Shown here one piece after another: positions 21,976 through 24,239 of a stretch of 64,000 nucleotides of DNA; within the stretch, counting starts at the first letter, position 1; each line of letters opens with the position of its first letter. The DNA is from Pseudoxanthomonas sp. SL93. GTDB lineage: Bacteria; Pseudomonadota; Gammaproteobacteria; Xanthomonadales; Xanthomonadaceae. Where the stretch lies: contig NZ_CP113065.1 of assembly GCF_026625825.1 (NCBI RefSeq), positions 2,418,001 to 2,482,000 on the forward strand, in the 5' to 3' direction. Below the pieces are notes generated by a model. That model was given only the letters and a program-made list of their open reading frames with translations. It was not told the origin of the DNA and did no database searches. The position numbers and the translations under genes are program-made.

Positions 21976-22452
21976 ATGGATCTCCGCAAAATCAAGAAAC
22001 TGATCGACCTGCTGGAAGAGTCGAACCTGGCAGAAATCGAGATCAAGGAAGGCGAGGAATCCGTGCGCCTGGCCCGCACGCCGAAGGGCGGCTACGCCGT
22101 GCCGGCCCCCGCGCCCGTGGCGTACGCCGAACCGCGCCCGGCCGCGCCGATGCCGATGAGCTCGCCGACCGAGGCCTCCACGGGCGGTTCGGCCAAGCCC
22201 GGCAACAACCTGCCCGACGGCCACGTGGTGCGCGCACCGATGGTCGGCACCTTCTACGCCTCGCCGTCGCCGGAGAAGCCCGCGTTCGTCAGCGTCGGCC
22301 AGGCCGTCAAGGCCGGCGACACGCTGGCCATCATCGAAGCCATGAAGATGTTCAACCCCATCGAGGCCGACGTATCCGGCACCGTGCTGGCGATCCTGAC
22401 CGAAAGCGGCCAGCCGATCGAGTTCGACCAGCCGCTGTTCGTCATCGGGTGA
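21976..22452 (+). CDS. accB: Biotin carboxyl carrier protein of acetyl-CoA carboxylase
   Basis: Carries the carboxybiotin for malonyl-CoA synthesis in fatty acid biosynthesis. The N-terminal helix ([26 protein letters not shown], shown only by its ends MDLRKI and IEIKEG) leads to an Ala/Pro-rich linker and then the biotinyl domain, whose lysine is in IIEAMKMFN (about residue 124). Length 158 is normal. Its partner accC usually follows at once; here an S23-type cassette of about 410 bp separates them. Confidence 0.97.
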
Positions 22453-22477
22453 TTGGTGATTCGTGAGAAGTGATTCG
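22449..22477 (+). repeat. Left inverted repeat of the S23 cassette
   Basis: Twenty-nine bases starting GTGATTGGTGATTCGTGA and ending GTGATTCG. It overlaps the last bases of accB and includes the GTG start of the S23 gene at 22463. Confidence 0.8.
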
Positions 22478-22882
22478 CAAGAGCGACCACACCAGCGACT
22501 GGATGTCTGGCGTGACGCCATGGACCTTGTCACGATCATCTACGCATATTCAGCAGGCTTCCCTCAAGAAGAGAGATTTGGACTGACTTCGCAGATTAGG
22601 CGTGCAGCAGTAAGCGTTCCATCGAATATAGCGGAAGGTGCGGCACGCAAATCCACACCCGAACTGGTTCGCTTTCTATCCATCGCGCGCGGTTCGCTTT
22701 CCGAACTGGATACTCAGATTGAAATCGCCATCCGGCTTGGATTTGCCTCCCCGTCGCCCGAACTGCAATCCACGCTCGACCGTACATTCGCCAGGTTGAA
22801 CGCACTGATGACCAGCGTCAGCAGAACGACCCCCGAATCACCCATCACCAATCACGAATCACGGCCCTCCCATGCTCGATAA
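22463..22882 (+). CDS. Four-helix-bundle protein of the S23/23S-rRNA intervening-sequence family
   Basis: A 139-residue protein with the family core [42 protein letters not shown] and [23 protein letters not shown]. Proteins of this kind form pentameric four-helix bundles; they are encoded in intervening sequences of 23S rRNA, near retron or diversity-generating elements, and as stray cassettes. Function is unknown. The start is GTG at 22463, inside the left repeat; the last 16 residues come from the right repeat, and the stop overlaps the accC start by 11 bp, so translation may be coupled to accC. Confidence 0.88.
22834..22862 (-). repeat. Right inverted repeat of the S23 cassette
   Basis: The reverse complement begins GTGATTCGTGATTGGTGA and ends GTGATTCG, matching the left repeat at 24 of 29 positions. 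It lies inside the 3' end of the S23 gene and 9 bp upstream of accC. Confidence 0.8.
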
Positions 22883-24239
22883 AGTCGTCATCGCCAACCG
22901 GGGTGAGATCGCGCTGCGCATCCTGCGCGCCTGCCACACCCTGGGCATCCGCACGGTCGCGGTGCATTCCACCGTCGACCGCAACCTCAAGCACGTGGCC
23001 ATGGCCGACGAGTCGGTCTGCATCGGCCCGGCCGCGTCGAAGGACAGCTACCTCAACATCCCGGCGATCATCGCCGCTGCCGAGGTGACCGACGCGCAGG
23101 CCATCCACCCGGGCTACGGCTTCCTGTCGGAGAACGCCGACTTCGCCGAGCGCGTGGAGCAGTCCGGCTTCATCTTCATCGGCCCCAAGGCCGACACCAT
23201 CCGCATGATGGGCGACAAGGTCGAGGCGATCCGCGCGATGAAGGCCGCCGGTGTGCCGTGCGTGCCGGGCAGCGGTGGTCCGCTGGGCGACGACATCGTC
23301 GCCAACACCAAGATCGCGCGCGAGATCGGCTACCCGGTGATCATCAAGGCCGCCGGCGGCGGTGGTGGCCGCGGCATGCGCGTGGTGCATGTCGAAGGCG
23401 CACTGAAGGCCGCCATCGAGACCACCAAGTCCGAAGCCAAGGCCGCGTTCGGCAATGGCGAGGTCTACATGGAGAAGTTCCTGGAGAATCCGCGCCACGT
23501 GGAGATCCAGGTGCTGGCCGACGGCCAGGGCAACGCCATCCACCTGGGCGAGCGCGACTGCTCGATGCAGCGCCGCCACCAGAAGGTGGTGGAGGAAGCA
23601 CCGGCCCCCGGCATCAGCGACGAACAGCGCGCGGAAATCGGCAAGGTCTGCGTGGAAGCCTGCCTGCGCATCGGTTACCGCGGTGCCGGCACGTTCGAAT
23701 TCCTGTACGAGGACGGCCGCTTCTACTTCATCGAGATGAACACCCGCATCCAGGTGGAGCATCCCGTCACCGAGCGCATCACCGGCATCGACCTGGTGTG
23801 CGAGCAGTTGAAGATCGCCGCCGGGCAGAAGCTGGGCATCAAGCAGTCCGACATCGTGATGCGCGGCCATGCCATCGAGTGCCGCATCAATGCGGAAGAT
23901 CCGGATACGTTCATGCCGCACCCGGGCCTGATCCAGCACTTCCATCCGCCGGGTGGCCCGGGCGTGCGCGTGGATACGCACATCTACGAAGGCTACCGCG
24001 TGCCGCCGAACTACGATTCGATGATCGGCAAGCTGATCGTGCACGGTCCCGACCGCGAAACCGCCATCGCGCGCATGCGCGTGGCGCTCAGCGAGATGGT
24101 GGTGGACGGCATCAAGACGAACATCCCGCTGCAGCAGCGCATCATGCGCGACCAGGGGTTCCAGGCTGGCGGCCAGAACATCCACTACCTGGAAAAGCGC
24201 CTGGCCGAGCGCAAGAACAAGACCATCGCACTGGTCTGA
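22872..24239 (+). CDS. accC: Biotin carboxylase subunit of acetyl-CoA carboxylase
   Basis: ATP-grasp enzyme that carboxylates biotin on AccB. The 455-residue sequence shows [17 protein letters not shown] at the start, [14 protein letters not shown] (glycine-rich lid), [20 protein letters not shown] and [14 protein letters not shown], all intact. No good ribosome site precedes its ATG (GGCCCTCCC), which makes translational coupling to the S23 gene, whose stop lies inside accC, likely (inference). A strong terminator follows at 24252-24283. Confidence 0.98.

Follow-up and report, generated by a model that had tools for sequence, protein, structure and literature searches.

The window, the whole 64,000-nucleotide stretch of Pseudoxanthomonas sp. 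SL93 DNA that was analysed, carries a small S23/IVP gene enclosed by inverted heptamer arrays between accB and accC:

21976 to 22452, plus strand: accB, biotin carboxyl carrier protein (TIGR00531, 164.6 bits, cut-off 115.2)
22449 to 22477, plus strand: left heptamer array, GTGATTG GTGATTC GTGAGAA GTGATTC G (inverted-pair search and sequence)
22463 to 22882, plus strand: S23/IVP four-helix-bundle gene, 139 amino acids (PF05635 and TIGR02436 profiles)
22834 to 22862, minus strand: right heptamer array, the reverse complement of the left unit (inverted pair)
22872 to 24239, plus strand: accC, biotin carboxylase (TIGR00514, 759.8 bits, cut-off 626.5)

In the sequence, the accB stop codon TGA overlaps the left array. 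The arms are 29 nt each, 83% complementary and 356 nt apart. An earlier note had described 29-bp inverted arms around one S23 gene, and this was confirmed by the inverted-pair search and by the profile matches of the encoded protein (PF05635, 114.8 bits, cut-off 33.8; TIGR02436, 111.2 bits, cut-off 24). The coordinates likewise agree with its account of how the gene is embedded: the GTG start codon lies within the left arm, the right arm encodes the last residues, and the TAA stop (22880-22882) lies inside accC, whose start is at 22872. A Pfam search of the S23 protein at E ≤ 0.001 returned PF05635 as the sole match and no Y1/HUH transposase.

The repeat itself had been described as units of GTGATTSG. 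By itself this octamer is poor evidence, with 8 matches in the window where 4.5 are expected and 8 of 100 shuffles reaching 8. In contrast, the two-unit array GTGATTSGTGATTSG matches the genome 31 times and its reversed pattern 0 times. A 7-bp tandem unit (GTGATTS) describes the window repeat better than octamers do; the arms of repeated units stand, but the unit is 7 bp and varies among loci. Besides the window cassette, the 31 matches fall at 13 further places, which are without a PF05635 gene because the window copy is the only one in the genome. In 11 of the 12 other places that were read an inverted second array lies nearby, L010 being the one without. Gene-less repeats thus occur far above the random frequency against which the earlier note had set them, both here and in the family-wide pattern counts given below.

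Structure prediction gave an S23 model (pLDDT 90.3) with the predicted four-helix-bundle fold of the S23/IVP family, and Foldseek placed 2gsc first, followed by the Bacteroides S23 protein 2rld and then by Avd 4dwl and the DGR RNP 8ub7. The closest solved structure, 2gsc (TM 0.75-0.79 on the query), is XCC0516 of Xanthomonas campestris, which is 58-61% identical to the window protein and whose PDB entry is titled conserved hypothetical protein. The Avd matches, 4dwl and 8ub7, are weaker than 2gsc, with a probability of 1.00 but an E of only 0.035-0.05, and DGR Avd shows a like fold at 12% identity. According to the accessible text of PMC4990558, the function of S23/IVP proteins is not known. 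The S23 genes at accB/accC are under purifying selection (dN/dS of 0.055-0.32 in 10 pairs out of 11 and saturation in the remaining one). The acc-site S23 gene of G192 (L059/L070) looks inactivated because of an in-frame TGA, and its arrays persist.

To the accB/accC site itself we devoted a comparison of 90 junctions, drawn as 30 and 60. The junction was empty in 42 of them (spacer of at most 20 nt, typically 10), held S23 in 27 (419-471 nt), an S23-less heptamer hairpin in 6 (128-140 nt, one hairpin decayed) and something else in 15. The empty site for which the earlier note had proposed a search thus exists in relatives. Hairpin-bearing G175 and G170 gave no S23 match in the family search, the S23 copy of G097, one of the 15 remaining junctions, has its middle deleted and both arrays intact, and the array edges at the examined site are strongly variable. 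An AGGA, GGAG or GAGG core precedes accC in 35/42 empty junctions, 0/27 with S23, 0/6 with a hairpin and 3/15 others; in the window, too, the Shine-Dalgarno core is absent directly 5' of accC. Of the 27 S23 junctions, 26 had a readable S23 frame, with its stop at or past the accC start in 20 and 42-54 nt before it in the remaining 6. Both the absence of the core and the position of the stop fit the proposed takeover of accC translation, and ribosomes translating S23 probably continue into accC.

Other spacers at this site have a different make-up. A second palindromic family, 87-105 nt long, sharing CCCGCGAAYGCC and without heptamers, occupies accB/accC in G078, G105, G197, G069 and G070 (L293, L282, L285, L305 and L316). 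At L322 (G040) the spacer is 335 nt and gave no S23 match by tblastn; G040 has 121 array matches and no S23.

We then characterized the flanks of S23 genes across bacteria, beginning with a set of 80 loci: the window copy, the 30 best-scoring host-family loci, 19 more family loci chosen from genomes with few pattern matches, and the 30 best loci phylum-wide. Most loci of this set that were read by eye had arrays at both flanks, with units that differ between loci (GTGATTC, GGGAATC, GGGACTC, GGGACCG, GAAATCT, GGCAGTA and others). Over the 79 usable Pseudomonadota loci, the mean tandem score at lag 7 was 11.5 upstream and 11.9 downstream (maximum 14), against 7.4-8.8 at lags 4-6 and 8-12, 7.3-9.0 for other lags and control windows taken together, and 7.4 at lag 7 in windows 500 bp off. 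Scores of at least 12/14 were reached at lag 7 in 37 and 48 loci and at any other lag in at most 1. In 62/79 loci the inverted repeat scored higher than any of 78 shifted controls, but under the harsher control of flanks swapped between loci only 30/79 lay above the 99th percentile, a low yield that follows from units common to several loci.

Since this test was devised after the pattern had been seen, it was rerun on independent loci: out of 586 named ones, all from other genomes, the best 80 were taken (79 usable), covering Bacteroidota, Patescibacteria, Planctomycetota, Chloroflexota, Clostridia, Elusimicrobia, one archaeal MAG and others. The lag-7 means were 10.9 and 10.9, compared with 7.6 in control windows. 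Scores of at least 12/14 occurred at lag 7 in 33 and 38 of the 79 loci, at lag 14 in 31 and 31, at lag 8 in 9 and 8, and at lags 4-6 and 9-13 in at most 3, and the inverted repeat surpassed all 73 controls in 55/79. Together, flanking inverted and/or tandem arrays accompany 129 of the 158 usable S23 loci (the 160 loci of both sets minus two with short flanks), with neither in 29; the earlier picture of a single stray cassette gives way to one of wide recurrence. With at least 11/14 required on both flanks, 91 loci qualified at lag 7 and 10 at lag 8, with a single locus each at lags 9 and 12 and none among the 158 at lags 4, 5, 6, 10 or 11. The 91 lag-7 loci carry 66 distinct units, mostly in 3-4 copies (L233, with a masked stretch, is included in both numbers). 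Left and right units agree within one mismatch in 68/91, versus 4.7% for mismatched loci, and the left units are purine-rich in 78/91.

Some loci depart from the common period or the common hosts. Ten have an 8-bp period on both flanks (L129, L189, L190, L197, L224, L237, L238, L241, L242 and L266), and six of these ten S23 genes belong to Bacteroidota; L188 has a period of 9. The archaeal-binned S23 of L217, on a Methanophagales MAG contig for which mis-binning is possible, shows a moderate period-7 signal, with scores of 12 and 10/14 and an inverted-repeat score of 29.

Next, arrays were counted genome-wide in the host family. Of the 198 genomes searched, 84 have S23, and a degenerate three-unit pattern matched in 120. 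Genomes with S23 had a median of 156.5 array matches (n=84) and those without a median of 0 (n=114; p=8e-22), a comparison to be read with the search patterns in mind, as they derive from S23 flanks and arrays of other units in S23-less genomes may therefore escape. At least 20 matches were present in 59/84 genomes with S23 and in 11/114 without, leaving 25/84 S23-bearing genomes below 20. The association holds within genera: among 25 with both kinds of genome, the S23-bearing ones were higher in 22, lower in 1 and tied in 2, and a few of the 22 differ by only a match or two. To a smaller degree it extends to genus g167 of another class, with a median of 13 with S23 (n=99) versus 4.5 without (n=20; p=0.0008).

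Scattered arrays were also inspected as elements in samples of three genomes, where 29 inverted pairs spanning 62-206 bp were found; many sampled arrays stayed unpaired by this test, for example in G058, where 29 array clusters gave 7 pairs. Of the 29 elements, 3 were dropped as too short, and the interiors of the other 26 scored a mean of 7.9 on the left and 8.7 on the right, compared with 8.2 for random 16-mers. The dispersed elements share their arrays, and a weak AGCGG-type motif apart, their interiors are hardly more alike than random 16-mers; a conserved core, suspected by eye, was not upheld by this scoring. Such interiors are not what plain whole-element copying predicts, and they favour renewal of the arrays in place (concerted evolution) at least as much as they favour such copying. 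Inside the heptamer hairpins L337 and L343 of G058, a palindromic repeat of the GTAGGAGCGGCTTCAGCCGCGAC type is nested.

The identity of the array unit usually follows the resident S23. For 13 of the 16 car-site S23 loci we read the flank unit by eye as GGGACTC, GGGACCG or GGGACCC, leaving out G191, G048 and G130 for mixed or unclear units, and counted perfect three-unit arrays of each kind genome-wide. The unit at the genome's own S23 flank was the commonest in 11/13 genomes (permutation p=5e-5), another unit outnumbering it in G168 and G056. A similar pattern was seen in 400-kb samples of genus g7: a genome with acc-site S23 only gave 56 acc-type and 0 car-type matches, one with both S23 lineages 64 and 24, and one without S23 0 and 2. 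The fourth sample, from G085 with car-site S23 only, gave 45 acc-type versus 25 car-type matches, which argues against strict dependence on S23 unless the acc-type arrays are relics. The S23-less accB/accC hairpins of G158, G186, G085 and G140 consist mainly of the unit of their own genome's car-site S23, and these car-type units at accB/accC rule out a unit set by the site.

These counts bear on whether the gene or the arrays came first. Some other process might make heptamer hairpins in which S23 merely lodges or survives, and the association would then arise because array-rich genomes offer more landing sites. Such an order of events would fit the S23-less hairpins at accB/accC of other genomes, the 11/114 S23-less genomes with many arrays, and the acc-type arrays that G085 retains without an acc-site S23. 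It accords poorly with G034, which has five S23 genes, three of them with clear by-eye arrays (L099, L101 and L102), but only 2 lag-7 arrays in one 400-kb sample (5 at a looser threshold), with the tracking of S23 lineage by array type in 3/4 genus g7 samples, and with period 7 at S23 flanks in phyla beyond the dispersed-array searches. We regard it as unlikely. Lower still is our estimate for mutational bias alone, in which polymerase slippage would produce the arrays and template switching the palindromes, S23 being uninvolved. Tandem growth and the agreement of flanks at the same locus could be accounted for in this way, but the within-genus association with S23, the matching of units between loci and the choice of 7 rather than 5, 6 or 9 are left unexplained, making this the least probable of the explanations considered.

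At the RNA level, the left and right arrays are predicted to pair in the fold of the window cassette, but the cassette as a whole folds no better than shuffles (z=-0.26). Four S23-less elements gave z values of -11.9, -6.0, -4.6 and, for one whose left end is cut short, 0.16. An RNA-level element would work through such pairing in polycistronic mRNA: the stem would be cut or protective, S23 or the host would regulate the neighbouring genes, nothing would move, and selection on pairing would keep the arrays alike. The predicted pairing, the three elements with z below -4, the purine-rich left arrays and the cutting of rRNA IVS by RNase III (accessible text of PMC4990558) are all in line with this, but pairing alone explains neither why units match among loci in the same genome nor why the copies at nrdA/nrdB, described below, are antisense, and together with the z value of the whole cassette these points leave it distinctly improbable. 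A known RNA family was sought in 11 element-holding loci, and no Rfam match reached the gathering score apart from tRNAs. An rRNA insertion was sought with six 23S motifs in the 160 S23 loci, allowing 2 mismatches; five had no match, and the three matches of the sixth, a 16-mer, were taken as chance, leaving no locus convincingly within 23S.

The S23 sites in the family were named from short peptides. The 50 family loci comprise 16 at car, 11 at nrdA/nrdB, 8 at accB/accC, 2 before nrdR and 13 elsewhere. Copies at nrdA/nrdB are antisense to nrd (L043, L050, L057, L060, L097, L103, L109, L110, L112, L113 and L115), whereas those at acc and car lie in sense orientation. On an S23 tree of 72 rows (49 of the 50 family loci and 23 further acc copies), acc requires one change of site, car two, nrdAB five and the rest eight, the acc grouping having a support of only 57/84. 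As the tree groups by site, jumps of the gene appear rare, and the accB/accC copies, forming a lineage of their own, do not look like fresh insertions. This pattern indicates that S23 genes at acc and car stay put while the array units turn over.

In REPIN-RAYT systems, palindromic repeats without a gene are scattered about, and a partner gene is bordered by the same kind of repeat. The present elements resemble these systems and MITEs in this combination of scattered gene-less copies with a repeat-bordered gene, and in a copy number tied to the partner gene, with G085, the array-rich S23-less genomes and the array-poor S23-bearing ones as exceptions. They differ in that the REPIN-RAYT partner is a Y1/HUH transposase, whereas here it is a small helical-bundle protein without a transposase match, and in that the repeat consists of tandem 7-bp units whose sequence changes, unlike a REPIN. 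An enzyme acting in trans (a reverse transcriptase, a RAYT or an IS200/IS605-type transposase) might drive movement with S23 as an accessory like Avd, a role that the likeness of fold to Avd would suit. However, a DGR has a linked reverse transcriptase and the window system has no such link: PF00078 has no match in the window's own genome, and it occurs in 17/84 genomes with S23 versus 23/114 without (Fisher p=1.0). This lack of co-occurrence rules out a trans-acting reverse transcriptase as the general driver, and we hold the wider proposal of an enzyme in trans to be very improbable.

One of the nearest described systems is the 23S rRNA IVS of Coxiella burnetii, in which, according to the accessible text of PMC4990558, a terminal inverted repeat with a 28-bp stem encloses an S23 ORF preceded by two or three GACAGAT heptamers and a degenerate one, in strain-variable number. 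As far as that text goes, the window element is alike in having its S23 ORF within a stem-forming terminal inverted repeat with tandem heptamers beside it. The Coxiella IVS lies in 23S rRNA, whereas the elements described here, including that of the window, lie between protein genes; scattered S23-less copies and unit matching are found here, and the accessible text of PMC4990558 makes no mention of them for the Coxiella IVS. The accessible text of Rehm et al. 2015 (PMC4692102) describes heptameric repeats, GGGNATC in Xanthomonas and GGGGAYT in Nostoc, as scattered 7-bp arrays between aligned genes, with four units preferred, and counts 70 inverted pairs in one Xanthomonas genome and 75 in another. 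There the heptamers are interpreted as G-quadruplex repeats, whereas the arrays here are tied to S23, and neither "S23" nor "xcc0516" appears in the main text of PMC4692102. As a common principle, the G-quadruplex fails on the units themselves: GGG is present in 33/91 left units and absent in 58/91, as it is from the window unit GTGATTS. Our search of the open-access literature found no paper joining S23 with scattered heptamers, no agreed cause of scattered bacterial heptamer repeats, and heptamers beside an S23 ORF only in the Coxiella IVS report, as far as its accessible text shows (PMC4990558).

Taken together, the partnership between S23 and the arrays is well supported. We lean towards reading the window locus as a resident S23-heptamer element, the operon counterpart of the 23S rRNA IVS, with S23 acting on arrays in trans. 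Both the binding of S23 to the arrays and their mode of spread are our inference: an S23 oligomer, with its Avd-like fold, would bind the purine-rich arrays as single-stranded DNA, RNA or stem, perhaps holding one array unit per subunit, and once bound would make arrays grow, spread and stay alike genome-wide without a recognisable transposase. TRAP forms a ring of subunits holding triplets, and a comparable ring with one 7-nt unit per subunit would explain a fixed period combined with a free sequence. With arrays kept up genome-wide in this way, the S23-less hairpins would be dependants of S23, as REPINs are of RAYTs, and the heptamers of Rehm et al. might be dependants of S23 elements as well. 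At accB/accC, the element would have displaced the Shine-Dalgarno of accC. A broader proposal, which we put forward tentatively and as somewhat short of probable, is that S23 proteins drive a class of transposase-less elements in which inverted arrays of 7-bp (sometimes 8-bp) units, nearly free in sequence and held one unit per subunit, are copied, kept uniform and joined by array-only dependants. The rRNA IVS, the Xanthomonas heptamers and perhaps further heptamer repeats of bacteria that lack an explanation would then be products of this class.

The data tie S23/IVP proteins to scattered heptamers and give each of them its expected partner. The link is testable, since it names a protein, a genome-specific 7-bp ligand and a predicted loss of arrays where the gene is missing. 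On our reading of the window, the region ahead of a core gene, accC, where ribosomes bind has given way to a resident element. The recurrence of the design in most S23 relatives that were read points to a seldom noticed kind of genetic element, one in which a small protein would have a dispersed DNA repeat as its partner.
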